Source: Mitsuaria sp. GD03876 (GTDB taxonomy: Bacteria; Pseudomonadota; Gammaproteobacteria; Burkholderiales; Burkholderiaceae_C). From it: a DNA stretch of 64,000 nucleotides. Shown here in pieces: positions 11,761 to 55,257 of this stretch. The translations under genes and the position numbers were made by a program. Each line of letters begins with the position of its first letter. The first letter of the stretch is position 1. The stretch spans positions 1-64,000 of the forward strand of contig NZ_JAOCCU010000014.1 in assembly GCF_029840635.1 (NCBI RefSeq), read 5' to 3'. The notes beneath the pieces are model-generated. The model was not told the origin of the DNA, did not search any database, and saw nothing but the letters and a program-made list of their open reading frames with translations.

Positions 11761-12060
11761 GGCGTTGTCCGGTTGCCCATCCAGGCTAGACCTGCCCCCG
11801 CCCGTCGTCATCGTATGGATTGAGGAGCCGTCCCGACCCCAGTTGCCCAGCTCGGCGATGCGGGCGTCGATCAACCAGATGCGAAAGGCATGCGTCGATA
11901 GAAGCAACCCTTCGATGGTGCGACCAGTCTTCATTCATATGCTCGGTCGCCACTTGCAAGGGAGCAACATGAAGACATTGAGAGGCTTCGCCGGCATGGT
12001 GTTTCGCGCCGGTGCGTCCGCGAGCCGTTCGAGCCCTGTCTGCCGGAGGACTTCTGATCA
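11761..12060. other. Divergent intergenic region with a gene remnant and a small reading frame
   Basis: These 300 bases separate the minus-strand lipoprotein gene from the plus-strand hypothetical gene at 12061. They hold a 34-base segment (11839-11872) 32/34 identical to the 5' part of the DUF1801 gene at 13381-13414, and a short plus-strand reading frame at 11969. No clear -35/-10 pair was found by eye. Confidence 0.6.
11839..11872 (-). pseudogene. Short remnant resembling the 5' end of a DUF1801 gene
   Basis: On the minus strand this segment reads IDARIAELGNW, nearly the same as IDARIAELGDW in the intact DUF1801 protein encoded about 1.5 kb away in the same orientation. The DNA matches at 32 of 34 positions. 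No further DUF1801 sequence is visible on either side, so it looks like a relic of duplication or recombination. Confidence 0.5.
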
Positions 12061-12073
12061 GTGCAGCGGATGA
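11969..12073 (+). CDS. Possible 34-residue small protein or leader peptide
   Basis: A short frame starts MKTLRGFAGMVFRAG and ends 13 bases inside the downstream hypothetical gene. It is preceded by a good Shine-Dalgarno (AAGGGAG, four bases before ATG), better than those of many real genes here. It has a basic N-terminus but no convincing hydrophobic core. It could be a leader peptide coupling translation to the next gene, or chance. Confidence 0.3.
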   Translation: MKTLRGFAGMVFRAGASASRSSPVCRRTSDQCSG

Positions 12074-12960
12074 GACGACGCTCATGGGCCTTCGCGGCTC
12101 TTTCGACGGCCATGGTCGTGGTGGCGATCCTCAGCTTCACGCGGGATGCCAACCACGATCGTGTCGCCGTTCAGCTTGCGCGGAATGCCGCCGCAACTGC
12201 ACCGGCACATTCGAGCTCGGTGTCCATCGCCCCCGCCGCATCCGCACCCGCGAGCGGCATGCCGACGCGCGCGCTGCCGGGTTCATGGCCGATCGATCCG
12301 GATCGAAGCCGCCTCTCGGACCTGCTGGAAGGCGCGGCCAATTCGGCGGACGACTACGACCGGTGGGTGGCCATGCGGATTTCGGCCCTCTGCGTGTCAT
12401 TGCCCGATCGACCGGTCTCGGACGAATCTGTGGCGGTCAGCGTCAGCGGCTCGGAAGCGCGCAAGCGCGCGGTCGCGACGGCAGCGAGGGCGGCACATGA
12501 GCGGCTGCAGCGGTTCTGTGCCTCCGGGGACGGCCAGGACTACCTGGCAGGCGTCCGAAGCAAGCGATTCCAGTTGGGCGCGATCGGTCCCAACAGCCGC
12601 ACGACGACATCGGGGAGCCCGTCGGAGCGACTTCAATGGCTGCCGGTCGTTCTCGCCTCTCCACAGCGCTATGCCGCGTCCGCGGAGTTGTGGATCGAAG
12701 AGATCGCGTCTCGCTCGCTTCCGGTCGAGTTGCGCGGCAACGCCGATGCCACCGCATTCGTCGTGGAGGAACTCTCCACCCGCTTGCTTGGCGGCACCTC
12801 GGCGGCTTCAGTCACCGCGCTGAGTCGCTGCGCCGTCCAGTTGCGGTGCGCCGGGCTCAGCGGACTCAATCCGGAGCAACAGCTGGCGGCCCAGGCCGCC
12901 GTGGATCGGATCGAAGACGACGTCCGCCACCAGCGATGGGAAGCGCTCTCCGCCCACTGA
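12061..12960 (+). CDS. Hypothetical membrane-anchored protein
   Basis: This is a 299-residue protein from a GTG start, with a second possible start (ATG at 12070). GGAGGA lies about ten bases before the GTG. The N-terminus MRRRSWAFAALSTAMVVVAILSF is a basic stretch plus one transmembrane or signal-anchor helix. A low-complexity Ala/Ser/Pro linker follows (~45-70), then a helical Ala-rich domain with four Cys residues (in ALCVSL, RFCASG, SRCAV and LRCAG) that could form disulfides in the periplasm. I do not recognise the family. Codon use is slightly less GC-biased than in the neighbours, as it is in the adjacent lipoprotein and LpxR-like genes. Confidence 0.55.
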   Translation: MQRMRRRSWAFAALSTAMVVVAILSFTRDANHDRVAVQLARNAAATAPAHSSSVSIAPAASAPASGMPTRALPGSWPIDPDRSRLSDLLEGAANSADDYDRWVAMRISALCVSLPDRPVSDESVAVSVSGSEARKRAVATAARAAHERLQRFCASGDGQDYLAGVRSKRFQLGAIGPNSRTTTSGSPSERLQWLPVVLASPQRYAASAELWIEEIASRSLPVELRGNADATAFVVEELSTRLLGGTSAASVTALSRCAVQLRCAGLSGLNPEQQLAAQAAVDRIEDDVRHQRWEALSAH

Positions 12961-38540: not shown

Positions 38541-38773
38541 GGGGCTCCTCGCGTGGCGGGCAAAACCCCGGCGCAAGGCAATCGACTCGCCCGGCTCAAC
38601 AGCTCGTTACATCGCTGTGGTGCCGGAATATTCCAGCGCGGTTGCGACGCGTCCCCGCAAGCGAGTTCAAGCCCTTGCCCGACGGCGCGGATCGGCGCGA
38701 AGCCCCTGGCCATCGGCGTAGAACGCCGCCTGAGTTCCGCAGCCCCTGCGGGACCACACCCAGGAGAGCCTCC

Positions 38774-39373
38774 ATGAAGTCCATGCCCCTGATGGCGATC
38801 GCACTGGCTGGCGCCGCGCTGGCCGCGCCGGCGCTCGCGCACGACATCGTCTACACCGCGCCGTTGAGCGGCGCGTCGGAGTTCCCGCCCAATGCGTCGG
38901 CGGGCACCGGCCTGGCGACGGTGACCTTCAACGACGACGACTTCACGATGCGCGTGCAGGTGAGCTTCGCCGGGCTGACCGGCACGACGACCGCGTCGCA
39001 CATCCACTGCTGCACCGCCGACGCGGCCACCGGCAACGCGGGCGTCGCGACGACGACGCCGACCTTCCCGGACTTCCCGCTCGGCGTGACGTCGGGGGCG
39101 TACGACCGGATCTTCGACATGACGCAGATGAGCAGCTGGAACACCGCGTTCATCAACGCCAACGGCGGGACGATCTCGAGCGCGTTCGCGGCGCTGTCGA
39201 CGGGCCTGGCGGGCGGCAAGGCCTACCTGAACGTGCACTCGACCTTCGCGCCGGGCGGCGAGATCCGCGGCTTCCTCGTCGCCAGCGCGGTGCCCGAGCC
39301 CTCGACCTACGCGCTGATGATCGGCGGCGTGCTGGCGTTGGGGGTGATGAGCCGGCGGCGGCGAGCGGGTTGA
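38774..39373 (+). CDS. CHRD domain protein with PEP-CTERM sorting signal
   Basis: This is a 199-residue exported protein. It has a signal peptide at 1-22 (MKSMPLMAIALAGAALAAPALAH), a CHRD domain (~25-170, SGASEFPPNASAGTG, HIHCCTADAATGNAGV, AYLNVHSTFAPGGEIRGFL), and a C-terminal PEP-CTERM anchor VPEPSTYALMIGGVLALGVMSRRRR. PEP-CTERM proteins are processed by exosortase in bacteria that make extracellular polysaccharide. No exosortase gene is in this window. AGGAG lies upstream of ATG. The His pair in HIHCC and the buried Cys pair may bind metal. Confidence 0.93.
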   Translation: MKSMPLMAIALAGAALAAPALAHDIVYTAPLSGASEFPPNASAGTGLATVTFNDDDFTMRVQVSFAGLTGTTTASHIHCCTADAATGNAGVATTTPTFPDFPLGVTSGAYDRIFDMTQMSSWNTAFINANGGTISSAFAALSTGLAGGKAYLNVHSTFAPGGEIRGFLVASAVPEPSTYALMIGGVLALGVMSRRRRAG

Positions 39374-39962: not shown

Positions 39963-39985
39963 GCTAATGAGAATTGCTCGCATTC
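39963..39985. promoter_or_regulatory. Fur-box-like site upstream of a TonB receptor
   Basis: The segment TAATGAGAATTGCTCGCATT resembles the Fur consensus (AATGAGAAT with an inverted ATTCTCATT half). The left half is exact, the right half is degenerate. It lies about 50-70 bases before the siderophore-type receptor start, which fits iron repression. Confidence 0.65.
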
Positions 39986-40033
39986 GCGATAGAGTCGCAC
40001 CCGCGTTTAGAACCGACTCTCCTCCCCACTCGA

Positions 40034-42166
40034 ATGAAGCAGCAATTCCTGATGACCGCCGGCGCGCTGGCGGCTTCCCTCGCGATGGGCGGCCACGCCC
40101 TGGCCCAGTCCACCACCGACGCCGCCTCGTCCCCGGCCAAGGACGCCACGCTCGAGAAGATCGTCGTGACCGGCAAGCGGGCCAACCGCGTCTCCAAGGG
40201 CGCCACCGGCCTGCCCATGGACATCAAGGACACGCCGCAGTCGATCAGCTCGATCGACCAGGAGGACATGGCCAACTTCGGCCTGACCGGCAGCAACGAG
40301 GCGCTGGCGATGGCCACCGGCATCAACGTCGAGCAGTACGAGACCAACCGCGCCACCTTCAACTCCCGCGGCTTCGAGATCCAGCTCACCCAGGTCGACG
40401 GCCTGGGCATGACCAACTCCTGGGGCACCGTCGTCGGCCGCGAGGACACCTTCCTGTTCGAGCGCATCGAGCTGATCCGCGGCGCCAACGGCCTGCTGAC
40501 CGGCGTCGGCAACTCCTCCGGCACGATCAACTACATCCGCAAGCGGCCCAAGAACGAGGACGGCGGCGAGGTGAACGTCACCTTCGGCTCCTGGGGCCAG
40601 AAACGCGTCGGGCTGGACTACAACAAGGTCCTGACCCAGGACGGCGCCTGGGCCGGCCGCTTCGTCGTCGCGCACGAGGACAAGGATTCCTACCTGCGCG
40701 CGCTGCATGACCAGCGCACCTCGATCTACGGCGTCGTCGACGGCCAGATCGGCACCGACGGCGTGCTGACCGTGGGCATCACCACGGTGGACTCGAAGCA
40801 GGACTCGCCGATGTGGGGCTCGCTGACGCTCAAGCGCACCGACGGCTCGCAGGCGGACTTCCCCGTCGGCGCGTCCACCTCGCAGGACTGGACCTACTGG
40901 AACACGCGCTCCTACAACGCGTTCGCCGAGTACACCCACCGCCTGTCCAAGGACTGGGAAGCCAAGCTCACCTACAACTACCGCCACGGCAACGACGCGA
41001 CGCGGATCTTCTACGCCTACTCGCTCACCGGCGCCCTCAACCCCGACGACACCGGCCTGGTCGGCCTGCCCTACCGCAGCCTGGGCAGCTCCGACAACAA
41101 CGTGCTGGACGCCAACGTCAACGGCAAGTTCACCGCCTTCGGCCGCGAGCACACGCTGCTGGCCGGCCTGAGCCGCTCGCGCGAGAAGACCGCGGTCGAC
41201 ACCTTCGCCGCGCTGACCCACGCCGGGGACCCGCTGCCCGCCTTCCCCTACGGCGGCGACGTGTACACGCAGCCGGACTGGGGCCCGCGCGCGCCCAGCA
41301 CCCGCGGCTCGCAGACGCTGACCCGCTTCTACGCCGCCACGCGGCTGTCCGTGACCGACGCGCTGCACGCGGTGCTCGGCCTCAACGCGGTGAAGCTGGA
41401 ACGCGACGGCGCGTCGATCTACGGCAACGCCGCCACCAACACCGTCTACCCGGACACGAAGAAGACCAGCCCGTACTTCGGCCTGACCTACGACTTCACG
41501 CCCGACGTGCTGGGCTACGTGTCCTACTCGGACATCTTCCAGAACCAGGACCAGACCGACACCAAGGGCGAGTACCTCGCGCCGATGAAGGGCGTGAACA
41601 CCGAGGTCGGCGTCAAGGCCGAGTGGCTGGACAAGGCGCTGATGACCACCGTCGCGGTGTTCAGCTCCAAGCAGGAAGGCCTGGCGACCGAGGGCGGCGT
41701 CATCGCCGACCCGGGCGGCCCGCTGGACGGCAAGAGCTGGTACTTCGGCCAGGACGTGAAGTCCAAGGGCTGGGAAGCCGAGGTCACCGGCCGCGTCACG
41801 CGCGACACCAAGGTCTCGCTGGGCTACACCCGCCTGATCCTGACCGGCCCGGACGGCAACGACACCTACGAATGGGTGCCCCGCGACACGCTGAAGGTCC
41901 GCGTCGACACGCGCCTGCCGATGCTGCCCGCGCTGCGCCTGGGCGTGGGCGCGCGCTGGCAGTCGGCGGTGCGCAAGAACGGCGGGGCCAGCCAGGGCGC
42001 GTACCTCGTGGCCAACGCCTTCGCGTCCTACGCGCTCACGCCGGCCGCGACGCTGCGCGTGAACGTCAACAACCTGTTCGACAAGAAGTACGTCGGCGGG
42101 CTGGCCTACGGCGCGATCTACGGCGCGCCGCGCAGCTACGGCGTGTCGCTGGACTACCGGCTCTGA
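40034..42166 (+). CDS. TonB-dependent siderophore-type receptor
   Basis: This is a 710-residue outer-membrane receptor. A signal peptide (1-27, MTAGALAASLAMGG region, cleaved at ALAQ) is followed by a TonB-box-like LEKIVVTGKR, a plug domain (~45-165) with the ferric-siderophore hallmark DTPQSISSIDQEDM and ERIELIRGANGLLTGVG, and a beta-barrel ending LDYRL. It lacks an STN domain. The PQSIS plug pattern belongs to the TonB siderophore receptor group. The Fur-like box upstream supports iron-controlled expression. The ligand is unknown. The 3' end overlaps the convergent TPR gene by 13 bases. Confidence 0.9.
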   Translation: MKQQFLMTAGALAASLAMGGHALAQSTTDAASSPAKDATLEKIVVTGKRANRVSKGATGLPMDIKDTPQSISSIDQEDMANFGLTGSNEALAMATGINVEQYETNRATFNSRGFEIQLTQVDGLGMTNSWGTVVGREDTFLFERIELIRGANGLLTGVGNSSGTINYIRKRPKNEDGGEVNVTFGSWGQKRVGLDYNKVLTQDGAWAGRFVVAHEDKDSYLRALHDQRTSIYGVVDGQIGTDGVLTVGITTVDSKQDSPMWGSLTLKRTDGSQADFPVGASTSQDWTYWNTRSYNAFAEYTHRLSKDWEAKLTYNYRHGNDATRIFYAYSLTGALNPDDTGLVGLPYRSLGSSDNNVLDANVNGKFTAFGREHTLLAGLSRSREKTAVDTFAALTHAGDPLPAFPYGGDVYTQPDWGPRAPSTRGSQTLTRFYAATRLSVTDALHAVLGLNAVKLERDGASIYGNAATNTVYPDTKKTSPYFGLTYDFTPDVLGYVSYSDIFQNQDQTDTKGEYLAPMKGVNTEVGVKAEWLDKALMTTVAVFSSKQEGLATEGGVIADPGGPLDGKSWYFGQDVKSKGWEAEVTGRVTRDTKVSLGYTRLILTGPDGNDTYEWVPRDTLKVRVDTRLPMLPALRLGVGARWQSAVRKNGGASQGAYLVANAFASYALTPAATLRVNVNNLFDKKYVGGLAYGAIYGAPRSYGVSLDYRL

Positions 42167-42978
42167 TCGTCCGCGCCGCGGCGGCGCAAGGCCGCCGCCC
42201 GGCGCGCGAGGGCCGCGGCGGCCTCCGTCCGGCCCTGGCTGCGATGCAGCGCCTGCAGGTTGTCCAGCAGCGGCAGCAGGCGCGGGTCGCCCGCGCCCAC
42301 GGCCTGTTCCAGCCGGTCCAGCGCCTGCAGGAACAGCGCCTCCGCCTCGCGCAGCCGGCGCCGCCGGTACAGCTGTCCGGCGAGCGCGTTGAGCACGCCC
42401 GATTCCGCCGCCCACACCGCCGCGCCCTCGTCCGCGTGGGCGCGGTAGAGCGCGAGCGCGCGCTCGTTGAAGCGGCGGGCGTCGCCCTCGCGGCCCAGCG
42501 CCTCGTTCATCCGCCCGCGCGTGGCCAGCACGCTGGCCAGTGCCACCTCCCGCGCGGCGCCCTCGCCTTCCAGCAGGCGCTGCGCGCGCGCCAGCAGCGC
42601 GTCGGCCTGCGCGCGCTCGTCGCGCGCGGCATGCCAGAGCGCGAGTTCGTTCAAGGGCTCGGCCAGCGCCGGGTGGTCCGGTGACTCGGCCTCCAGCAGC
42701 GCCATCGCGCGTCGGTAGCACGGCGCCGCGCCCTCGAGGTCGCCCCGCGCCGTCAGCGTGCGCGCCTCGCGAAACAGGTCCTCGACCGCGGCCGGCGCGG
42801 CGACCGTCGGCGGCTGCGCGCCGCGGGCGCCGGCCAGCGGCAGCACCTGCGCGACGATCGCGGCCACCACCAGCCGGCAGCAGCGGCGGCGCGAGGGGCC
42901 GCGCGACGGCCCGTCCGACGAGTCGCTTGATGAACCGCGCGATGACGGACGCGATGGCCAAGGCGACAGGAAACGCAT
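42154..42978 (-). CDS. TPR repeat protein at the end of the Slam/hemophilin operon
   Basis: This is a 274-residue protein with an N-terminal basic stretch plus a hydrophobic helix (CCRLVVAAIVAQVLPLAG, signal or anchor), then about five tetratricopeptide-like repeats (LFREARTLTARGDLEGAAPCYRRAMALL, PLNELALWHAARDERAQADALL and similar). TPR arrays mediate protein contacts. It begins 12 bases after the Slam-like gene, in the same orientation, so it is probably co-expressed and could help in cargo handling in the periplasm. An ATG three codons upstream (42987) is possible. Its end overlaps the convergent receptor gene by 13 bases. Confidence 0.7.
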   Translation of the reverse strand: MRFLSPWPSRPSSRGSSSDSSDGPSRGPSRRRCCRLVVAAIVAQVLPLAGARGAQPPTVAAPAAVEDLFREARTLTARGDLEGAAPCYRRAMALLEAESPDHPALAEPLNELALWHAARDERAQADALLARAQRLLEGEGAAREVALASVLATRGRMNEALGREGDARRFNERALALYRAHADEGAAVWAAESGVLNALAGQLYRRRRLREAEALFLQALDRLEQAVGAGDPRLLPLLDNLQALHRSQGRTEAAAALARRAAALRRRGADDQSR

Positions 42979-42990
42979 GGGCGGCACCGG

Positions 42991-44484
42991 TCAGAACACC
43001 GCGTTGACGCCGAGCGTCAGGCGGTGCTTCTCGTAGTTGTAGGCGTGCGGGATGCTGCTGCGGTTGTTGCGGTACTCGTAGCCCAGCGTCGGGGTCAGGC
43101 CTTGCCAGCCCCAGCGCGGCACGGAGACGTTGAGGAACAGGCTGTCCTCGTGATCCCGCTGGCGCTTGCCGAAGACGAGGTTGGCCGCCTCGGCGCGCTT
43201 CTCGCGCCGGCCGTAGGCCAGGCTCACCGACGCCTGGTCGGCGAAGGACTTGTTGATCCCCACGCGGGCGACCTGCTCGCGCAACGCGAAGACCGTCTCG
43301 CGGGCCTCGCTCTCGCGCCACATCAGGTGCCCGAACGCCAGCCAGCCGCCCGGCAGCACGTACTGCCCGAACAGCGAGGCGCTGCGCACGTCCCCCTCCA
43401 GGCTGGCCGCGAAGCGCGGCGCGAAGCGGCGCGCCTTGTACTCGAGGCTGGCTTCCAGTTGCGCCCGCGGCCCCAGCGGCCGCGTGTAGGCCGCGCGCAC
43501 GCCGAAGGCCCGATAGATCTCGCGGCCGCCCTCGAGGTCCACCTCCAGCAGCGGCAGCACCTGCACCTGCGCGCTCGCGGAGGCGTACTGGTAGCCGGCG
43601 TAGACCGCCGCGACCAGGTTGTCGAATTCATCGTGGCGCGCGTAGTGGTTGCCGTACACGAGCCCCCGCGCGAGCAGCCCGTGATGCCCCGCCAGCGGCC
43701 ACCAGCGGCTGACACTGCCCTCGACGTAGACGCCGGTGTCCGACAGCTTGTCGCCCGGCGTGTTGGCCAGGCACTGGTCGAACAGCACCAGCGCGCAGGG
43801 ATCGACGACGGTGGAGGCGCTGTTGACGTTGTCCTCGCGCACCGCGGACACCGACAGCGACCATTGCGCCCGCACGCGGCGCTCGATCGCCAGCAGGTAC
43901 TCGTCGATGTGGCGCGTCACCTCGGGCGGCAGCGCCTGCGTGCGCAGCCGGTCGAACGCCTCCCGGGCGTCGCGCACCCGGTTGTCGGCATACAGCGTGC
44001 GCGCCAGGTCCAGCGTGGCGCGCGTGAAGCGCGGATCGGCCTCGAGCACCGCCTCGTAGCCCGTCACCGCGGGCCCGAGCTCGCCGGCCGCGGCCGCGCG
44101 GCTCGCCGCGACGAATCCGGACATCGCCGGCGAATGCCGCGGCATGCGCAGGTACTCGCGCAACAGGCGGTCGGCGCCGAACCAGTCGCGCCGGTTCACC
44201 GCGTCGAGCACCGCGAGCTGCTGGCGCTGCAGGCGGTCCTCGGGCGGCTGCACCATCGCCGCGAGCGGCGAGTCCGGCGAGCGGCTCGCCACCGCCTCGC
44301 GCAGCGGCGCGGGCGCCGATCGCTGCTGCGACTGCTGCTGCTCCATCCCTTGCCACAGCCGCTGCTGCGGATCCTGCTGCGCCCGGGCACCGCCTGGGGC
44401 CGGCGCGATCAGGCTGGCCAGGCCGGCGATGGCGACGATCGCGCCGGCGCCGGAACGGCGCGCGCGTCGGTGAAGGTCGTTCAT
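42991..44484 (-). CDS. Surface lipoprotein assembly modifier (Slam, DUF560-like)
   Basis: This is a 497-residue outer-membrane protein with the Slam layout. A signal peptide (~1-36, ending GGARA) is followed by a periplasmic TPR-type domain (~85-185, LLREYLRMPRHSP, AVTGYEAVLEADPRFTRATLDLARTLYADNRVRDA) and a C-terminal beta-barrel (~200-497) with SLSVSAVREDNVN at its entry and a terminal LGVNAVF. Slam proteins move lipoproteins or secreted heme-binding proteins to the cell surface. It follows a hemophilin-like gene, the usual cargo/translocon pairing. An intrinsic terminator sits just before it. No strong Shine-Dalgarno is seen before the ATG at 44484. Confidence 0.8.
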   Translation of the reverse strand: MNDLHRRARRSGAGAIVAIAGLASLIAPAPGGARAQQDPQQRLWQGMEQQQSQQRSAPAPLREAVASRSPDSPLAAMVQPPEDRLQRQQLAVLDAVNRRDWFGADRLLREYLRMPRHSPAMSGFVAASRAAAAGELGPAVTGYEAVLEADPRFTRATLDLARTLYADNRVRDAREAFDRLRTQALPPEVTRHIDEYLLAIERRVRAQWSLSVSAVREDNVNSASTVVDPCALVLFDQCLANTPGDKLSDTGVYVEGSVSRWWPLAGHHGLLARGLVYGNHYARHDEFDNLVAAVYAGYQYASASAQVQVLPLLEVDLEGGREIYRAFGVRAAYTRPLGPRAQLEASLEYKARRFAPRFAASLEGDVRSASLFGQYVLPGGWLAFGHLMWRESEARETVFALREQVARVGINKSFADQASVSLAYGRREKRAEAANLVFGKRQRDHEDSLFLNVSVPRWGWQGLTPTLGYEYRNNRSSIPHAYNYEKHRLTLGVNAVF

Positions 44485-44493
44485 GACTGCATG

Positions 44494-44522
44494 AAAAAGG
44501 GACCTGCCCAAGGGCAGGTCCC
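44494..44522 (-). terminator. Intrinsic terminator between the hemophilin-like gene and Slam
   Basis: GGGACCTGCCC pairs perfectly with GGGCAGGTCCC (11 bp) across two bases, followed on the minus strand by five T. It lies 16 bases after the cargo stop codon and ends about ten bases before the Slam start. It should end most transcripts there and lower Slam expression relative to cargo. Confidence 0.9.
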
Positions 44523-44537
44523 GGAGCGCGGAAACGC

Positions 44538-45305
44538 TCAGTTCTTGATGCCGCCGAAGCCGGCCACGAAGGCGCTGCTGCCGCTGCCGCCCTTGGCGGT
44601 GCCGGCCACCGCGCTGGTCGCGCCGCTGCCGAAGAACTTGCCGTCGGCCGTGCCGCTCACCGTGCTGTTGAGCAGCGCGGTGCCGGCGAAGGTGCCCGCG
44701 CCCGCGTTCACCGAGGTCGCCAGCGCCAGCGTGTTGCCGCCGCCGGTCAGCCCGGAACCGGTCGTGTTCAGCGTGCCCGCGGCGGTGTTGTATTGCAGCG
44801 TGCCCGTCAGGATCACCGGCGCGCTGCCGGTCGTGGCCGGCAGGGCCAGCAGCCCGGCGGCGGCGTAGTTGGTCGTGGCGGTCGGCAGCGCGTAGCCGGT
44901 GCGGTCGCCGACGTAGAACGCGGCGTGCTGGTTGGGCGTGCCCGGGTTGGTCGCCAGGCCGAAGTAGACGTTCTGGCTGATCGTCGGCACCTTGAACCAG
45001 TTCAGGTCGGTCGAGATCGTGCCGCCCGGGCCGGCATGGGTGTAGCCCAGCAGCTGGTAGCGGCGGAAAGCGACGCCGCCCGACGTGGTGGCGCTGTCCT
45101 TGTAGCTGAAGGCGTCGATGCTCTGCAGGCTGATGTAGTTGGTGCCGTCCAGCGCGATGCCAGGCGCGCCGATCGGGCCGTGGAAGCTCACGGTCGCGCC
45201 GCCGGTCTTGATGATGCCGGCATCGGTCGTGCCGCCCTGCGAGTCGTACGCCTGCGCGGCGCCGAACGCGGCGACCAAGGCGGCAGCGATGAAGGTCTTC
45301 TTCAT
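44538..45305 (-). CDS. Hemophilin-like secreted protein, putative Slam cargo
   Basis: This is a 255-residue exported protein. The signal peptide MKKTFIAAALVAAFGAAQA is cleaved by signal peptidase I, and there is no lipobox Cys, so it is secreted, not lipidated. The N-terminal domain (~20-150) contains all three His residues of the mature protein (His42 in SFHGP, His90 in YTHAG, His127 in NQHAAF), candidate heme ligands. The C-terminal domain (~155-255) reads as a Gly-rich eight-strand barrel with GTADGKFFGSGATSAVAGTA and ending AFVAGFGGIKN, the pattern of hemophilin/TbpB-type barrels recognised by Slam. It lies between a PKD lipoprotein and Slam. Heme binding is an inference. Confidence 0.7.
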   Translation of the reverse strand: MKKTFIAAALVAAFGAAQAYDSQGGTTDAGIIKTGGATVSFHGPIGAPGIALDGTNYISLQSIDAFSYKDSATTSGGVAFRRYQLLGYTHAGPGGTISTDLNWFKVPTISQNVYFGLATNPGTPNQHAAFYVGDRTGYALPTATTNYAAAGLLALPATTGSAPVILTGTLQYNTAAGTLNTTGSGLTGGGNTLALATSVNAGAGTFAGTALLNSTVSGTADGKFFGSGATSAVAGTAKGGSGSSAFVAGFGGIKN

Positions 45306-45355
45306 GTCAAACACTCCAAGGAAATGTGTGCGTCGCACACGGGTTGAGATCTCGT

Positions 45356-47773
45356 TCAGTCGCGGGGGCCGACGCGGAACACGCGGCCCGGTTTCTCGGC
45401 GATGCGCAGGGACCACGTGAAGCGGTAGTCCGCGTAGCGCTTCTGCAGCCGGGCCTGCTCGGCCTTGAAGGCCTCGCTGCCCGTGTCCATCGCGTACAGG
45501 GCCTGCATCAGCGCGCGTTCGTCGGGGATCGCGGGACGCAGCAGCTGGAACTCCACGCTGTCGCCGCGGCGGATCACCTGGCCATCCCGCAACCCGGCGA
45601 ACCGGGCCGGACGGGCGACGTCGGTCGAGCTGGCCACCAGGTCGGCGATCGTGACGTCGCCGTCGGTGGCGGTCAGCCGGTAGCTGCCGACCACGCGCGG
45701 CTCGGTGTCCGGATCGAAGTTCAGGCCGCCGACGTCGATCGGCCGCGCGTGGGGCCAGGCCTGCTGGCCGAGCGACACGTCCTCCAGCAGCGGGCCCGGG
45801 TAGTTCTCCGCCTTCACCACGGTGACGTTGAGCTTTTTCGTCTCCGAGTACGCCGCGCCGTCGCTGGCGACGACCTGGAACTCGTAGTCGCCCGGCAGCG
45901 TGAGGAAGAAGCCGCCGTAGTCGACCGGCTCGCTGATGCCCTGGACCACCTGGCCCGACAGCGAGGGCGTGAAGCTGCTGCCGGCAGGGAACTTCGTCGC
46001 GGTGACGATGTAGTACAGCGGCGCGTCGAGGTCGGGATCGAAGATCGAGGCCGCGACGCTCACGCCCACGCCGGTGCGGGTCACGCCGTTCTCGGTGACC
46101 GCGCGGATCACCAGCGGCTGGTCCGCCGTCGCCTCGATCGGCCGCAGCCGCAGGTTCGCCACCACCGGCGCGTTGTTCTGCGCCTTGGCGAAACCCTGCG
46201 CGAAGTTGCGCTGGCCGGCCGGTCGGAACTTGCCCTTGGGATCGCTGACCTTGAGCTGCACGCGGTACAGGCCCGGCTTGTCGGTCAGCACGCCGCTGCG
46301 CGCGGCGGCGGGGTTCTGCAGCGTGGCGGCGCTGCCGTCGGGCCGGTCGACCAGGGTCCATTCGTAGCTCAGCGGATCGCCGTCGCGGTCGCTGGACTTG
46401 CTGGCGTCGAACCACAGCGTCTGGCCCACCAGCACGGTGCCGGTCTCCACCACGCTGTCGGCGATCGGCGGCCGGTTGGCGCCGGTCTTGAGCGTGATCG
46501 CCGTCGAGACCGGCGCGCTGTCGACCTGGCCGTCGTTGACGACGAGCTGCACCTGCCAGGTCCCGCCGACGGCCAGGTTGGACAACGCGTACAGCGCCGG
46601 GCCGACCTCGGTCTTGCGGTCCGCCGGCGTCGCGACGTTCCAGTAGGTCCAGGTGGCGGTCAGCGGATCGCCGTCGGCGTCATGGGAGGTGGAGGTCTGC
46701 GCGCAGTAGCCGCCGGTCTCGCACTCGTCCGCGGGGAAGCCGTTGTCGATGCGGGCAGTCGGCGGCAGGTTGGGCGCGTCCGCCGGCCGGGTGACGTCCA
46801 GGATCAGCCGCTCCGTCGTGGCGACGCTGCGGTCGTAGACGGTCAGGTCGATGTAGTAGCGGCCCACCGCGTCCGGCACGAGCGTGGCCTTGGCGCCGGT
46901 CGCGTCCTTGATCGTGGCGGTCGACGCGCCGGGCCGGGGCTGCGCCGTGCTGTTGGGCACGAAGGGCGCGAAGCGCCAGCGGTACTGCAGCGCGTCGCCG
47001 TCGGCATCGCTGCTGGTGCTGCCGTCCAGCACCACGGTGCTGCCGCGCACGGCCGTCCTGGGCGTCGTGATCCTGGCCACCGGGCGGCTGTTGCCGTTGT
47101 TCACCGCCACCTCGGCGGTCGCGGCGACGCTGACGCGATCGCCATGGCGCACGGTCAGCGTGGCGCGGTAGGTGCCCAGCTTGCCCGCCGGGAAGCTGGC
47201 CTTGGCCGAGGTGGCGTCGGCCAGCACGGTGGCGATCGAGCCCGCGGGCTGCTCGGTGAGCGTCCACGCATACCGCAGGTCGGCGGCCGCGGCGCCGGTC
47301 GGCGGCAGGCTGGCACTGCCGTCCAGGATCACCGTCGTGCCCTGCAGCACCGACTGGCTCGCCGGCGAGACCACCGCGACCGGATCGGGGTTGGTGACCT
47401 TCAGCGTCACGCGCGACGCGAGGCTGCCGGCCTTGGCGTCCTTCACGACCAGGTCGACGACGTAGTCCCCCGGCTTGTCGGCGACGAAGGTCGGTGCCGC
47501 GGCGGCGGCGTCGGACAGCACGGCCGCGCTGCCCTCGGGCTTGGTGCTCAGCGTCCAGGCGTAACTCAGCGTGCCGCCGTTGGGCGTGGTGCTGCCGGTG
47601 CCGTCCAGCGTGATCGTCGTGCCGATGGGCGCGCTGGCCTGGCTGGGCTTGACGATCGCGACGGGCGGCGTCGGGGCGGCGTCGCCGCCGCCGCCACCGC
47701 CGCCGCAGGCGGCGAGCAGCAGCGCGGCCGAGCCGGCGAGGCTCGCCATCAGGGTGCGCAGGGAGGAAGTCAT
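45356..47773 (-). CDS. Multi-PKD/Ig-like domain lipoprotein
   Basis: This is an 805-residue lipoprotein. The lipobox is LLAAC, followed at once by seven Gly residues. At least five repeats of the PKD/cadherin-like fold follow (LDGTGSTTPNGGTLSYAWTL, LDGSASLPP, LDGSTSSDADGDALQYRWRF, SHDADGDPLTATWTY, FDASKSSDRDGDPLSYEWTL), then a less regular C-terminal region (~480-805). Asp-rich DADGDxL turns suggest calcium. PKD domains bind polysaccharide or protein partners. Alternative starts lie at 47788 and 47815, the last only seven bases after the receptor stop. A poly-Gly tether after the lipid Cys resembles surface-exposed Slam substrates, so it may be surface displayed. Confidence 0.75.
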   Translation of the reverse strand: MTSSLRTLMASLAGSAALLLAACGGGGGGGDAAPTPPVAIVKPSQASAPIGTTITLDGTGSTTPNGGTLSYAWTLSTKPEGSAAVLSDAAAAAPTFVADKPGDYVVDLVVKDAKAGSLASRVTLKVTNPDPVAVVSPASQSVLQGTTVILDGSASLPPTGAAAADLRYAWTLTEQPAGSIATVLADATSAKASFPAGKLGTYRATLTVRHGDRVSVAATAEVAVNNGNSRPVARITTPRTAVRGSTVVLDGSTSSDADGDALQYRWRFAPFVPNSTAQPRPGASTATIKDATGAKATLVPDAVGRYYIDLTVYDRSVATTERLILDVTRPADAPNLPPTARIDNGFPADECETGGYCAQTSTSHDADGDPLTATWTYWNVATPADRKTEVGPALYALSNLAVGGTWQVQLVVNDGQVDSAPVSTAITLKTGANRPPIADSVVETGTVLVGQTLWFDASKSSDRDGDPLSYEWTLVDRPDGSAATLQNPAAARSGVLTDKPGLYRVQLKVSDPKGKFRPAGQRNFAQGFAKAQNNAPVVANLRLRPIEATADQPLVIRAVTENGVTRTGVGVSVAASIFDPDLDAPLYYIVTATKFPAGSSFTPSLSGQVVQGISEPVDYGGFFLTLPGDYEFQVVASDGAAYSETKKLNVTVVKAENYPGPLLEDVSLGQQAWPHARPIDVGGLNFDPDTEPRVVGSYRLTATDGDVTIADLVASSTDVARPARFAGLRDGQVIRRGDSVEFQLLRPAIPDERALMQALYAMDTGSEAFKAEQARLQKRYADYRFTWSLRIAEKPGRVFRVGPRD

Positions 47774-47821
47774 GGGGGTCGGTGTCATGGACGGAGGAAG
47801 GGGCGATGCGGACATCGGCGG

Positions 47822-50719
47822 TCAGAACTGCAGGGTCACGCTGAGCCGCGCGGTGCGGCCGGGCGCGGGGATCAGGCCCAGGCCGAGCGCGTCGAGGTAG
47901 TAGCGGTCGGTCAGGTTGTCGAGGTTGAGGTCGATGCTCAGCCGCTCGCTGGCGCGATAGCCGGCGAAGAGGTCGACGACGCGGTAGCCGTGCCACGGCA
48001 CCACCGGCAACAGGCCCTGCGCGGTGTCGTCGTTGAAGGCCGGCGCGCGGGTGCGACGGCCCATCAGCGTGGCGCGGGCGCCGACGGTCAGCCGGCGATC
48101 CAGCAGCCGCGCGCCGAGCGTGGCGCTGCCGTGCCAGCGCGGCGGCACCATGTTGTTGATGTAGCTGTTGGCGACGCCGTAGTCGTTGCAGGCGTTCACG
48201 CGGTAGCTGCCGGCATGGCACACCTGGATGCGGGTGTAGCGCGTGGCGCCGACCTCCACGTAGCCGACGCCCGCGTCGTAGCCGCCGGACGCCTCGATGC
48301 CCTCGAAGCGCACGCTGTCGATGTTGCGCAGCGTGAAGTTGGTGCTGATCTGCCCGTCCGATTCCCACAGGTTGGGCGAGGTGCGCGTCAGGTAGTCCTT
48401 CACGTGGTTGCGGAAGTGGGAGACCTTCAGCCGCAGCCGGTCGGACCGGCGCAGCACGCCGTCGCGCATCAGGTTCACGCCGATCTCCTTGTTGACGGCG
48501 TGCTCGGGCCGCAGGATCACGTCGGGCTTGGCCACGAAGGAGAAGCCCGAGGTGCTCTCGAACAGGCTGGGCATGCGGTCGGCCTCGGCGTAGCGCGAGT
48601 AGACCTGCAGGCCCACGCGCGGCTCCCAGCTGATGCTGACGATGGGCGCGGTGCCGCTGCGGCGGTTGCGATTGGGGATGGGGTCGCAGGCGCCATCGCC
48701 ATCGCGGTCGACGCAGGACGGGCTGGCCTTGTCGGTGACGACGATGGGCCGGTCGTCGGCGGCACGGAAGCGCGTATGGCGCAGCCCGGCGTCGAGCGTG
48801 ACGCTGTCCACCGGCCGGTATTGCCAGGCGGCGAAGACGTTGGCCTCGTGGCGATCGCCGCTGCGGCCGCCCGTGTTGTTGTTGGCGCTCAGCGCCGTGG
48901 TGCCGACGGTCTCGCGCTGCAGCCCGAGCCCGATGCGCGCTTCGCTCTCGCCCCACCCCGCCGGATGCGTGAACAGCGCGGTGTTGCTCAGCTCCAGGCC
49001 GGTGCGGCGATAGCGCTCCCGTTCGTTGTTGTAGGTGTACTCGGCGGTGTTGGACTCGTCGGGACTGTTGTTGGTCGCCCGGGTGCGCGTGTGCCAGAGC
49101 GCGGCGCGCAGGTCCAGCCAGGGATGCTCGTCCGGATGCCAGCGATAGCGGCCGCTGTAGGTCTGGGCGGCGACCTGGCTGTCGCGCGGCTGCGAGACCG
49201 GGAAGAAGTTGCCGAAGCGGATGATCTGCGACGGCATGATCTCGCCGTAGCGGCTGTCGTAGCGCAGCACGCTGAGCTCGAGCTCCTGCCCGTCGGGCAG
49301 GTAGGCCTGGGCCTTGAGCAGCGCGGATTCGCTCTCGAAGTTGGTGCCGGGAATGCGCTCGCCGGCCTGGAAGCGCGAGGCGCCGCGGATCGCCGGCCGC
49401 ACCTCGGTATAGAACGGCAGCTTGCGCCGGTCCGACAGGTCCACCCAGGCCGACGGCCCGTGCGTGCCGGCGTGGTAGTTGCCCTGCTCGCGCCGCGCGT
49501 AGGCGGCGACCAGGTCCACCGACGCCAGCCGCAACGCGCCGGCGATGCTGCCGGCCCAGCTGGTGGGCTTGAAGGTGCCGGGGCGGTCCAGGCCGCCGGG
49601 GTAGCCCCAGTTCGCCGGCATCGGCGGCACGCAGATCGCGGGGTCGACGCAGTCGGCGCGGTAGACCGGCGCCGCGCCGCTGAAGTTGCCGGTGAACAGC
49701 CCGGCCGGCGTGCCGGGCGCGATGGGCGAGCCGCTGTTGTTGCCGATCGCCTGCGCGCGCACCCGCACGCCGGTTTCCCGGCCGTTGAGGACGACATCCT
49801 CCGCGTTGAGCGTGCGCATGCTGACGAGCCCGCCGACCGCGCCGGCGCCCTGCGCGCCCAGCACCGGCCCCTTGTCGATCTGGATGCCGCCGATCAGGTC
49901 GGGATCGACGTAGCTGCGCGAGGCCACGCCCGAGTAGCCGCGGTACACGGTCGTCTCCTGCCGGGCGCCGTCGACCAGCACCGGCACGCGGCCCTGCCCC
50001 TGCATCCCGCGGATGTTGATGTCCAGGCCGCCGCTGTTGCGGTTCTCGCCGACGAGCACGCCAGGCAGTCCCTGGAAGATGTCGCCCACCGAGGTGCCGC
50101 GCGAGCGCTCGATGTCCTCGCGCCGCAGCACGTGCAGCGAGCCGGCGCTCCGATAGCGCTCGTCGCGGGCGTCGCGCTCGGACCGGCCGCGCGTGCGCAC
50201 CGTCGGCAGCACGACATCGGGAACGGGGTCAGGACTTGCCTGCGCGTCGCCCGCGACCGCCGCGCGATGCGCCGGGACGTCCGCCGCCTCGCCCGGTTCG
50301 AGCCGCACGCTCGCCGGTCCGGTGAAGACGGCGCGCCAGCCGCTGCCGCGCAGCAGGCGCGCCAGGGCCTCGTCCGGCGTGAAGGTGCCGGCGAGCGCCG
50401 TCGCGCGCAGGCCCTGCAGCCGGCGCGGGTCGAAGAGCACCCGCAGGCCGGCCGTCGCGCCGACCGCCACGACCGCGCGGTCGAGGTCGCCCGCGGCCAC
50501 GTCGAAGCGCAAGGCCGTGGCGGCACCCGCGCCCGCCGCGCTATCGCCAGCCACGCCGTTGCCAGCCACGCCATGGCCCGCCGCGTCGGCCCTCGCCGCG
50601 CCCGACGGCGCCGCGCCATGCGCGCCCGTCCTCCCTGCTTCCATGCCCTGCGCATGGATCGCCGTGCTCGCCAATGCCAGCGTCGCCGACATCGCCGCGG
50701 CCCTCGCCCTTCTCGCCAT
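47822..50719 (-). CDS. TonB-dependent hemoglobin/heme-class receptor with STN signalling domain
   Basis: This is a 965-residue receptor. After a signal sequence and an Ala/Gly-rich linker, an STN domain (~70-142, FDVAAGDLDRAVVAVGATAGLRVLFDPRRL) marks it as a FecA-type signal transducer. The plug (~165-310) has VLVDGARQETTVYRGYSG and GIQIDKGPVLGAQGAGAVGG. The barrel contains FVAKPDVILRPEHAVNKEIGV and ends PGRTARLSVTLQF, the pattern of the TonB hemoglobin/transferrin/lactoferrin receptor group. It lies downstream of fecR and a Fur box. It would import heme or an iron ligand delivered by the hemophilin-like protein and signal to FecR. The ligand is inferred. Confidence 0.85.
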   Translation of the reverse strand: MARRARAAAMSATLALASTAIHAQGMEAGRTGAHGAAPSGAARADAAGHGVAGNGVAGDSAAGAGAATALRFDVAAGDLDRAVVAVGATAGLRVLFDPRRLQGLRATALAGTFTPDEALARLLRGSGWRAVFTGPASVRLEPGEAADVPAHRAAVAGDAQASPDPVPDVVLPTVRTRGRSERDARDERYRSAGSLHVLRREDIERSRGTSVGDIFQGLPGVLVGENRNSGGLDINIRGMQGQGRVPVLVDGARQETTVYRGYSGVASRSYVDPDLIGGIQIDKGPVLGAQGAGAVGGLVSMRTLNAEDVVLNGRETGVRVRAQAIGNNSGSPIAPGTPAGLFTGNFSGAAPVYRADCVDPAICVPPMPANWGYPGGLDRPGTFKPTSWAGSIAGALRLASVDLVAAYARREQGNYHAGTHGPSAWVDLSDRRKLPFYTEVRPAIRGASRFQAGERIPGTNFESESALLKAQAYLPDGQELELSVLRYDSRYGEIMPSQIIRFGNFFPVSQPRDSQVAAQTYSGRYRWHPDEHPWLDLRAALWHTRTRATNNSPDESNTAEYTYNNERERYRRTGLELSNTALFTHPAGWGESEARIGLGLQRETVGTTALSANNNTGGRSGDRHEANVFAAWQYRPVDSVTLDAGLRHTRFRAADDRPIVVTDKASPSCVDRDGDGACDPIPNRNRRSGTAPIVSISWEPRVGLQVYSRYAEADRMPSLFESTSGFSFVAKPDVILRPEHAVNKEIGVNLMRDGVLRRSDRLRLKVSHFRNHVKDYLTRTSPNLWESDGQISTNFTLRNIDSVRFEGIEASGGYDAGVGYVEVGATRYTRIQVCHAGSYRVNACNDYGVANSYINNMVPPRWHGSATLGARLLDRRLTVGARATLMGRRTRAPAFNDDTAQGLLPVVPWHGYRVVDLFAGYRASERLSIDLNLDNLTDRYYLDALGLGLIPAPGRTARLSVTLQF

Positions 50720-50833
50720 CGTGTCCTCTGTGAATTGCGGAACGGTCCGGACGCGGGGGCGACTGCTGTCGCGCGCCCGCTCCGCCGTGCTGCCTCAGAA
50801 GACGATTCAGGCCAGGGGATCGAGTAGCGGAGA

Positions 50834-50848
50834 TGAGAATGAATCTCA
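50834..50848. promoter_or_regulatory. Fur box upstream of the heme-class receptor
   Basis: TGAGAATGAATCTCA matches the inverted repeat TGAGAATNATTCTCA at 14 of 15 positions. It is about 115 bases before the receptor start, in the gap between fecR and the receptor gene. Confidence 0.8.
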
Positions 50849-50938
50849 ACGACTGTGCGATGTTCGCGCGACGGCGCGAAGGGGCGCGGCGAAGCGCGCC
50901 GCCGCGCCCGGGCGCGGCCGGTCGAGATCAGCGGGGGT

Positions 50939-52108
50939 TCAGTACAGGATCACCACGCCCGGCAGGCGCAGCACGCGCAGGCCGAGTTCATCGCGCAGCG
51001 CCGCGATGACGCCGTCGACATCGGCGGCGGGGAACACGCCGCTCACCTCGCGCCGCGCGAGCGCCTCGCCGCGCACGGCGATGTGGCCGGGGTAGTGGCG
51101 GTTCAGCCGCGCGACGACGTCGTCCAGCCGCAGGTGCTCGAAGACCAGCTGGCCGCGGGCCTCGGCGTCCAGCAGCGTCGGCGACGCGGTCTCGACCGCG
51201 CCGACGGCGGTCGCGTCGTAGCGCAGGACCTGCCCCTCGGACACGGTCGTCGGCGCGTTGGGCGCAACGGCGATCGACACGGCGACGCGATGCTCGATGC
51301 CGACCACGCGGGTGTGCGTCGCCAGCCGCTCGACGAGGAAGCGGGTGCCCAGCGCGCGGATGGCGCCGGTCGCGGCGGTGACGACGAAGGGCCGGCTCTC
51401 CGCGCCGCTCCCGCCCGCGGCCTCGGCGGGGGTCGCAGTCGCAGTCGCAGTCGCGGCCGCGATCGCGGCGGTCGAGACGCCGGCCTGGGTGCCGGAGGCG
51501 CCGATCGGACGGGCGTCGAAGATCGCCTCGCCCTTGAGCAGCTCGACGCGGCGCTCGCCGGCCGAGTAATGCACGGCGATCGCGGAGTCCGCCATCAGCC
51601 GCGCGCGGCTGCCATCGGGCAGCGCGATGTCGCGGGTCTCGCCGATGGCGGTGCGCTGGTCGGCCCGCAGCGCGAGCATCGGCTCCCCGCCGGTCGCGGC
51701 GAACACCGCGATCGCGGCCAGCGCCGCCAGGCCGCCGCCGCCCCAGACATGGCGCGCGATGCCGGTCCGGCGCCGGGGCACGGCGCCGCGCGGCGTGGCG
51801 ACTCGGGCGACACCGGGAACAACGGCGGGGGCAACGGCCGGCGCCGTCTCCGGCACGAGGTCCGGCGCCTCCTTCAGCCCGCCGAGTTCCGCCCAGAGCC
51901 GTTCGGCGCGCGCGTACGCGGCCACGTGCGCCGGGTCCGCCGACCGCCATCGTTCCCACGCGCGCTCGTCCTGCGCCGAGTGCGCCTCCCCCTGCCGGCG
52001 GATCACCCATTCGGCGGCCTGCCGGGCGATCTCCGGGGAGTCGGGACCGCGCCCCGTCTCGCCGGAAGGGATCGAACCTGGGTCGCTGGTGGAACGGGGG
52101 TCAGTCAC
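50939..52108 (-). CDS. FecR family anti-sigma factor/sigma regulator
   Basis: This is a 389-residue regulator. The N-terminal cytoplasmic domain (~24-75, ARQAAEWVIRRQGEAHSAQDERAWERWRSADPAHVAAYARAERLWAEL) contacts the sigma factor. A single membrane helix (~122-138, GGGGLAALAAIAVFAATG) follows. The periplasmic FecR domain (RTAIGETRDIALPDGSRARL, GEAIFDARPI) and C-terminal STN-like segment (FEHLRLDDVVARLNRHYPGHIAV) sense the receptor. A short Ala-Thr repeat encoded by GTCGCA hexamers interrupts the FecR domain. The GTG at 52108 is taken as start. An ATG at 52216, just after the fecI stop, is possible. Confidence 0.88.
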   Translation of the reverse strand: MTDPRSTSDPGSIPSGETGRGPDSPEIARQAAEWVIRRQGEAHSAQDERAWERWRSADPAHVAAYARAERLWAELGGLKEAPDLVPETAPAVAPAVVPGVARVATPRGAVPRRRTGIARHVWGGGGLAALAAIAVFAATGGEPMLALRADQRTAIGETRDIALPDGSRARLMADSAIAVHYSAGERRVELLKGEAIFDARPIGASGTQAGVSTAAIAAATATATATPAEAAGGSGAESRPFVVTAATGAIRALGTRFLVERLATHTRVVGIEHRVAVSIAVAPNAPTTVSEGQVLRYDATAVGAVETASPTLLDAEARGQLVFEHLRLDDVVARLNRHYPGHIAVRGEALARREVSGVFPAADVDGVIAALRDELGLRVLRLPGVVILY

Positions 52109-52218
52109 GCGCGGGCCTTGGGCGGGAGGAAGGATGCCGCCGCAGCGGCTGCCACAGGAGACGTTCGAGCCCCCCGGATCCGGTAATGCGGCGAGGGGCA
52201 TCGGCGGCGAGCGCATTG

Positions 52219-52716
52219 TCAATGCTCCGGCACGCGCAGCATCACGTGGGCCAGCGCGCGGGCCAGGTGTTTCTGCACGGAGCTGGTGGACAGGTCCAGG
52301 CGGTCCGCGGCTTCCTGGTAGGACAGGTCCTCGACGCGGACCATCACGAAGATGCGCTGGGTCAGCTCCGGCAACTCGCGCAGCGCCTGCGTCAGCTGGA
52401 CCAGCCGCTGGCGTCCCGCCAGGGCGCGGTCGGGGCCGGGCGCGCCGTCCTGCACCTCGACCAGGTCCTGCGGATCCACCGCGGTGGTCTTGCGGGCGTC
52501 GTGCTGGCGGGCCTGGTCCGCCAGCAGGTTGCGCGCCATCTGGAACAGGTAGGCCCGCGCGTCCTGGACCGGCTGGCGCGCGGCCGCCTCCAGGAACCGC
52601 ACGAACAGCTCCTGCACCAGGTCCTGCGCGGTGTGCGCGTCCCTCACCCGATGGGTGAGCCACGCCAGGAGTTCCCGGCGGTGGGAGATGAAGACGAAGT
52701 GCGGGTCGGCCAGCAT
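52219..52716 (-). CDS. ECF sigma factor, FecI type
   Basis: This is a 165-residue sigma-70 family extracytoplasmic function sigma factor. Region 2 (~10-75) includes LLAWLTHRVRDAHTAQDLVQELFVRFLEA, and region 4 (~105-160) has LPELTQRIFVMVRVEDLSYQEAADRLDLSTSSVQKHLARAL. It lies upstream of fecR and the STN-containing receptor, the usual surface-signalling order. A perfect Fur box lies 29 bases upstream, so it should be iron-repressed and, when active, direct transcription of the receptor operon. Confidence 0.93.
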   Translation of the reverse strand: MLADPHFVFISHRRELLAWLTHRVRDAHTAQDLVQELFVRFLEAAARQPVQDARAYLFQMARNLLADQARQHDARKTTAVDPQDLVEVQDGAPGPDRALAGRQRLVQLTQALRELPELTQRIFVMVRVEDLSYQEAADRLDLSTSSVQKHLARALAHVMLRVPEH

Positions 52717-52744
52717 GGTGCGCCCGCGACTGTAGCCACTTTGT

Positions 52745-52759
52745 TGAGAATTATTCTCA
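52745..52759. promoter_or_regulatory. Perfect Fur box upstream of fecI
   Basis: TGAGAATTATTCTCA is an exact 7-1-7 inverted repeat matching the Fur consensus. It ends 28 bases before the sigma-factor start codon and would repress the whole signalling cascade when iron is plentiful. Confidence 0.92.
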
Positions 52760-55035: not shown

Positions 55036-55131
55036 GCGCCTGGCCCATGTCCGGGCCGCATCGCGCACCGGGGCGCGGCGGGCATCGCTCCCTCCCGCGG
55101 AAGGCGGCCGCGTCTGGCGACATACTGGCGC

Positions 55132-55222
55132 GCCGCACGCCGCACGCCGCACGCCGCACGCCGCACGCCGCACGCCGCACGCCACACGCCACACGCCACA
55201 CGCCACACGCCACACGCCGCAC
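55132..55222. repeat. Heptanucleotide tandem repeat (GCCGCAC/GCCACAC), 13 intact units
   Basis: Seven GCCGCAC units are followed by five GCCACAC and one GCCGCAC, then two degenerate units. The array lies between the AraC gene and the alpha/beta hydrolase gene, about 35 bases before the hydrolase start. Seven-base units suit slipped-strand length change. Two variant blocks show local homogenisation. Confidence 0.92.
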
Positions 55223-55257
55223 GCCGAGCGCCGATCGCCCCCTCCGACACCTTCTCC

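Follow-up and report, generated by a model that had tools for sequence, protein, structure and literature searches.

A probable Has-type heme-scavenging operon with a Slam-associated hemophilin, a PKD lipoprotein and an apparently mosaic history in Mitsuaria sp. GD03876

The stretch analysed here (the window) comprises 64,000 nucleotides of Mitsuaria sp. GD03876 (contig NZ_JAOCCU010000014.1, positions 1 to 64,000) and carries, between 42154 and 52759, an island of seven genes. We consider it probable that this island is a Fur-repressed, self-inducing heme-scavenging operon of the Has type, with a hemophilin exported by a Slam translocon, a mosaic origin and a PKD lipoprotein as partner. Judged from its genes, the set very likely sends out a small protein that grabs heme, which the receptor would then retake and sense. 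Islands of this kind are known; the PKD partner and the mosaic history are not described in the open-licence PubMed Central (PMC) literature that we found.

All seven genes lie on the minus strand, at the positions and in the order given by an earlier note made from the sequence alone. Matches to Pfam and NCBIfam models were judged against each model's own cut-off. The gene fecI (52219..52716; P0007) encodes an extracytoplasmic function (ECF) sigma factor of the FecI type, with matches to Pfam Sigma70_r2 and Sigma70_r4_2 and 82.2 bits to the NCBIfam sigma70-ECF model (cut-off 42.9). It is followed by a gene for a FecR-type anti-sigma regulator (50939..52216; P0005), which scores 56.7 for FecR (cut-off 24) and passes DUF4880; its start is uncertain and most likely lies at the ATG at 52216 or after it. 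The receptor (47822..50719; P0004) is TonB-dependent and HasR-like. Its N-terminal STN domain scores 33.3 (cut-off 28.4), its plug and barrel are over their cut-offs, and the NCBIfam heme/hemoglobin receptor model TIGR01785 is passed at 334.3 against 316.85, in agreement with the earlier description of a heme-class receptor with a signalling domain. HasR is also its best solved relative (E 4.6e-51), in an alignment that spans signalling domain, plug and barrel. A complete FecIR-type signalling set, composed of ECF sigma factor, FecR-type regulator and STN-bearing receptor, is thus present in the window by Pfam.

The hemophilin gene (44538..45305; P0001) encodes a protein with a signal peptide, recognised by eye, and no cysteine. 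The earlier note had called it hemophilin-like and had named a non-heme fold as what would speak against it; profile and fold both place it with the hemophilins. The protein finds solved hemophilins with phmmer (8gmm at 1.2e-13, 8glo at 8.5e-6), and a profile of the seven hemophilins of the window's clade reaches 8gmm (2.7e-21), 8gm3 (8.4e-15), 6om5 (1e-10) and 8glo (2e-10). This seven-member profile does not match A. baumannii 7re4, which is matched at 4.4e-39 by a 13-member hemophilin profile. The fold consists of an N-terminal clamp and a C-terminal eight-stranded barrel, and its nearest folds are HphA proteins. Among curated models, neither HphA_N nor HphA_C of Pfam matches P0001, and slam_lipo stays below its cut-off; of 13 relatives, HphA_N matches six and HphA_C five (E up to 0.01). 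Candidate heme ligands are His 42, variable in the seven-member clade, and His 90, invariant in it; HphA binds heme through two histidines, and its use depends on HphR (PMC8560813). Tandem hemophilin genes also occur, as in locus L079, where a pair (10509-12112) accompanies a single FecIR-receptor set.

The adjoining gene (42991..44484, with a possible earlier TTG start at 44511; P0002) encodes the Slam-like translocon that had been proposed, since SlipAM (PF04575; 142.4 bits, cut-off 22) and TPR_Slam (PF24575; 44.1, cut-off 35.2) are both over their cut-offs. A SlipAM barrel, an N-terminal TPR domain and a neighbouring gene for a cargo with a Sec signal are all found, as in outer-membrane translocons of type 11 secretion, and the hemophilin is its predicted cargo. 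It is the sole PF04575 match of the host genome. In the window's own family this model is matched in 28 of 299 genomes, host included, and strong Slams are rare there: among 29 loci other than the window's, only two have a hemophilin within 1.5 kb flanks. Most of the PF04575 matches in same-family genomes (L004-L030) belong to distant Slam-like proteins that score lower and have no hemophilin match within these flanks. Scanning the contigs of the genome collection with just the Slam as query gave no relative. Three bases after the Slam gene comes that of the TPR protein (42154..42987; P0006), which scores 60 for TPR_12 (cut-off 30.1).

Regulation by iron is suggested by two Fur boxes. The pattern TGAGAATNATTCTCA, searched with at most two mismatches over the 64 kb, matched twice, both times in the island, where 0.03 matches were expected and none of 100 shuffles had two. 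The sites, both already claimed, lie upstream of fecI (52745-52759, exact) and of the receptor gene (50834-50848, one mismatch, 14/15). When a site in a relative is counted as beyond chance if equalled in at most 5 of 100 resamples, 20 of 30 relatives have one upstream of fecI and 11 of 30 in the interval between fecR and the receptor gene; the site upstream of fecI is present in only two of the six hemophilin-positive relatives tested for it. No sigma-70 consensus promoters were found. In the gap that separates the hemophilin gene from the Slam gene, a hairpin scan detected a stem of 10 bp with a T-run (44499..44522, minus strand), the longest stem among the eight terminator-like sites of the island region (2.2 in shuffles). 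Its core, of the ACCTGC/GGCAGGT type, recurs in five other loci, in three by script and in two by eye, the script having picked a different hairpin in these two. The hairpin is possibly a partial terminator or an mRNA stabiliser, and may lead to higher hemophilin than Slam output.

Relatives of the locus were collected by scanning a genome collection with the receptor alignment via two exact 8-residue peptides, which yielded 36 loci. The set of 35 receptors used below, each above 1100 bits against the receptor profile, has the window and L031 added and L047, a duplicate of L031 with the same gene map, left out; five far receptors (L065_17234, L075-L078) are excluded from it, and L042 is excluded from the receptor tree. 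For 33 of the 35 receptors, FecI and FecR matches are found no more than 4.5 kb away, and hemophilin with Slam is found in ten of the loci, window included. The earlier note had suggested a search of betaproteobacteria for the same gene order, and this was successful: Comamonas sp. BIGb0124 (L031/L047) and Corticibacter populi (L048) have the closest order, FecI-FecR-receptor-PKD-hemophilin-Slam-heme oxygenase-TPR, which is that of the window plus a heme oxygenase before the TPR gene. In another genome, G570, FecI and FecR are followed by an STN receptor, two hemophilins and a Slam, with no PKD, heme oxygenase or TPR match in 19.5 kb; its receptor is 32% identical to that of the window over a 666-position alignment. 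Alcanivorax sp. 24 (L045 and L069, on one contig) harbours four receptor-PKD cores in about 52 kb, of which only two are accompanied by hemophilin-Slam.

The gene that most markedly sets the island apart from known FecIR-hemophilin-Slam sets is that of the multi-PKD lipoprotein (45356..47773). Its open reading frame extends from 47815, and the start at 47773 is most likely the right one because it aligns with the starts of the relatives. Several Pfam PKD models match the protein, as does Sde0182_C, a domain of cellulose-binding proteins. Its lipobox is followed by a poly-Gly stretch, and a Cys-Gly lipobox is present in 36 of 37 PKD matches. The AlphaFold model is a string of beta-sandwich domains, and fold comparison of that model returned generic Ig/FN3-type strings only. 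In 34 of the 35 loci, the window among them, the gene lies directly after that of the receptor, and the 35th locus is at a contig end; L069 has two consecutive PKD genes. A PKD profile run on 300 genomes of the order, with at most three candidates scored per genome, gave a near-full match (1-786 of 793) in the host only and partial ones in four others. The earlier note had taken the PKD and TPR proteins for additions to a hemophilin set. This does not stand: both are part of a receptor core found for the most part without hemophilin and Slam, and we reject them as hemophilin accessories. The locus points to a lipoprotein partner for a group of heme receptors, and the open-licence PMC papers that we found do not discuss it. 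A table for Kerstersia gyiorum has two uncommented instances of fecI, fecR and fecA listed next to a PKD domain protein (PMC6461280); this table aside, we found no paper in that literature on this PKD partner in heme uptake.

We then asked whether the parts of the locus share one history, in 28 loci left from 33 after removal of near-duplicates above 90%. Pairwise identities of the STN domain (residues 68-142, 50294..50518 on the minus strand; Pfam STN 94-140) correlate at 0.83 with those of FecR and 0.82 with those of FecI, against 0.47 with the plug and 0.49 with the barrel of the same receptor. Given the barrel, the partial correlation of STN with FecR is 0.76 (0 of 2000 permutations), and that of the plug with FecR 0.16 (0.008). 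By rank, STN-FecR gives 0.58 over all rows, 0.59 in a 12-row clade and, once eight marine rows are removed, 0.61 (0 of 1000 in each case), so that the marine block is rejected as driver of the result; in the six hemophilin-positive rows the value is 0.45 and not significant (89 of 1000). PKD tracks the barrel (27 loci, correlations taken without permutations), with a partial correlation of 0.77 given FecR; given the barrel, those with FecR and STN are 0.34 and 0.40.

Trees tell of the same separation, the histories of FecI and FecR differing from that of the receptor. The STN, FecI and FecR of the window are closest to those of Comamonas testosteroni JL40 (59, 64 and 46%), a locus without hemophilin, and the plug is also closest to this strain (88%); plug and barrel combined group with hemophilin-positive loci (100 in the Shimodaira-Hasegawa-like approximate likelihood ratio test, SH-aLRT). 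Sensor and receptor trees conflict at starred branches. In approximately unbiased (AU) tests the sensor data reject the hemophilin-positive clade (log-likelihood difference 573) and the plug-plus-barrel data reject the sensor clade of the window (332); with a further difference of 201, each grouping is rejected on the other data. Because the groups had been named with the trees already in view, we do not read the AU p values literally. It thus appears that the sensor cassette (fecI-fecR-STN) was swapped beneath a capture cassette (receptor barrel-PKD), with a breakpoint between STN and barrel that the plug is too conserved to locate more closely. Such receptors would be natural chimeras, with sensor and transporter of different origin. 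We found no paper in the open-licence PMC literature on natural exchange of STN together with FecIR.

The hemophore cassette (hemophilin-Slam) has a third history, separate from those of sensor and capture cassettes. On the receptor tree the hemophilin-positive rows amount to three changes, two of them forced by starred branches, with a mean of 9.1 in shuffles and none of 500 as low; eight of the ten hemophilin-positive receptors form one branch (SH-aLRT 100). Hemophilin and Slam trees both split into a main clade and a group of L068, one Alcanivorax copy and G570, and the pair therefore became linked to receptor-PKD cores on at least two occasions. A more general idea, which we put forward tentatively and hold as slightly more doubtful than secure, is that of an undescribed receptor family built like a kit with swappable parts: its base would be a HasR-like receptor and an obligatory PKD co-receptor, varied sensor cassettes would be joined to this base inside the receptor gene, and hemophilin-Slam would have been plugged in at least twice. 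If true, the wiring of sensing would evolve separately from what is captured.

These elements can be arranged into a mechanism. At low iron, Fur would leave the fecI and receptor promoters, and hemophilin, made with its Sec signal, would be exported via Slam as a soluble hemophore that captures external heme. It would then dock on the HasR-like TonB receptor, through which heme passes, and the STN domain would relieve FecR so that FecI raises expression; co-inheritance of STN with FecR and FecI lends indirect support to such receptor-to-FecR signalling. For the PKD lipoprotein the most likely role is that of a partner to the receptor at the outer membrane, where it would help to capture or dock the heme source. 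In three close relatives (L031, L032 and L048) a heme oxygenase gene lies between the Slam and TPR genes, recognised by Pfam in the first two (76.2 and 57.4 bits, cut-off 23) and by a custom profile in L048; the TPR protein of the window is shorter than that of L031. Heme oxygenase and TPR genes of relatives are found both with and without hemophilin-Slam. There is no heme oxygenase in the island, and one elsewhere in the host genome is rejected for want of any PF01126 match. Another host contig carries instead an hmu-like locus with two HemS matches; its heme/hemoglobin receptor and its TonB exceed their cut-offs, and its binding protein, permease and heme-type ATPase fall short of theirs. 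Because the host lacks the heme oxygenase seen in its relatives, we propose that heme would enter by this separate locus.

Several alternatives have to be weighed against this mechanism. The hemophilin-fold cargo could bind a ligand other than heme (a metal, a corrinoid or a different porphyrin) that the receptor takes up: His 42 and His 90 are displaced relative to the ligands of HphA, the host genome is without heme oxygenase, and cargo of the type 11 secretion system (T11SS) include CrpC, named a cobalt receptor protein (PMC12282271). We regard this as improbable, given that the receptor passes a heme/hemoglobin model, that heme oxygenase genes stand beside Slam in the three close relatives, that a sister hemophilin passes HphA_N, the model of the heme-binding domain, and that the nearest folds to P0001 are HphA proteins. 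There is a rather larger chance, still on the unlikely side, that the PKD lipoprotein binds glycans or serves as an adhesin at the cell surface, a linked passenger with no part in heme uptake. Its PKD and Sde0182_C matches and generic fold would fit such a role, which accounts less well for its place after the receptor in nearly all loci, across several families, for identities that track the barrel, and for a near-full profile match limited to the host among the 300 genomes scored.

Alternatively, FecIR and STN could be leftovers in an operon that takes up heme without signalling and answers to Fur alone, as the boxes at both promoters would allow; the tracking of FecR and FecI by STN, over the rest of the receptor, across 28 loci is hard to explain without contact, and leaves this reading little chance. 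Finally, the STN-FecR correlation could reflect fast, saturated evolution of sensors in place of exchange, considering that FecI, FecR and STN identities fall to 20-35% in many pairs and that plug conservation hampers placement of a breakpoint. We find this very unlikely, since close sensors occur with distant receptors (window versus L051: FecI 64%, FecR 46%, STN 59%, barrel 52%) and unrelated sensors with near receptors (window versus L031: FecI and FecR 23%, STN 31%, barrel 62%), and the starred conflicting branches and AU tests argue in the same direction. An exchange of sensor cassettes remains our preferred reading. Together with the PKD partner, such natural chimeras make two questions directly testable: the role of a PKD lipoprotein beside a TonB receptor, and the residues that set STN-FecR pairing.

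The earlier note had also regarded FecIR as a distinctive element. The hemO cluster of A. baumannii ACICU, printed as ECF sigma, anti-sigma, hphR, hphA, hsmA, a TonB-related gene, haem oxygenase and a hypothetical (PMC10483418), already has ECF sigma, anti-sigma, TonB receptor, Slam-dependent hemophilin and Slam in the same order, with the same hemophore fold, and G570 has a comparable gene order. FecIR control of a Slam hemophore is therefore known, and the idea of its novelty is corrected. That cluster differs from the island by its TonB-related and heme oxygenase genes, and its printed list has no PKD or TPR gene. With the Serratia has operon (hasI-hasS-hasR-hasA-hasDE-hasB), whose organisation and signalling have been described (PMC9249621), the island shares the operon logic and a HasR-like receptor with a signalling domain; where the has operon encodes HasA with a type I exporter, the island has hemophilin and Slam. 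It carries PKD and TPR genes in addition and no TonB gene, and by Pfam none of its proteins is of the HasA or HasDE families. The sensor, receptor and PKD core is shared with fecI-fecR-receptor-PKD loci of Pseudoalteromonas, Alcanivorax, Pigmentiphaga, Comamonas testosteroni JL40 and others, together with the Kerstersia gyiorum table; hemophilin and Slam were not found in these loci, and heme oxygenase is often in the stretch. Laboratory chimeras of PupA and PupB, in which signalling domains were swapped, showed that transport and signalling specificities are separable (Koster 1994, via PMC9249621) and that receptors of this chimeric build can work; the exchange in the window is apparently natural and took fecI and fecR along. 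The main text of a survey of T11SS cargo makes no mention of FecR, sigma, TPR, PKD or HasR (PMC12282271).

Some further features lie around the island or in its relatives. A second TonB receptor gene, of siderophore type (39974-42166, plus strand; 263.2 bits to TIGR01783, cut-off 223.5, with FhuE and FauA models not reaching theirs), is convergent with the TPR gene, with which it shares 13 bases, and a degenerate Fur-like stretch was seen by eye near 39966-39985. A PEP-CTERM motif is present on a CHRD-domain protein (38618-39373, plus strand). Between genes for an AraC-type regulator and an alpha/beta hydrolase, a tandem array of the heptanucleotide CGCCGCA (55131-55226) counts 13.7 copies at 97% match. 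Eleven of the related loci (L057, L058, L060, L061, L063-L067, L070 and L074) contain genes that we take, from the L060 sequences, to encode TonB, ExbD and ExbB. These loci are mostly marine, and in L060 the putative TonB, ExbD and ExbB genes are divergent to fecI and followed by a heme oxygenase.

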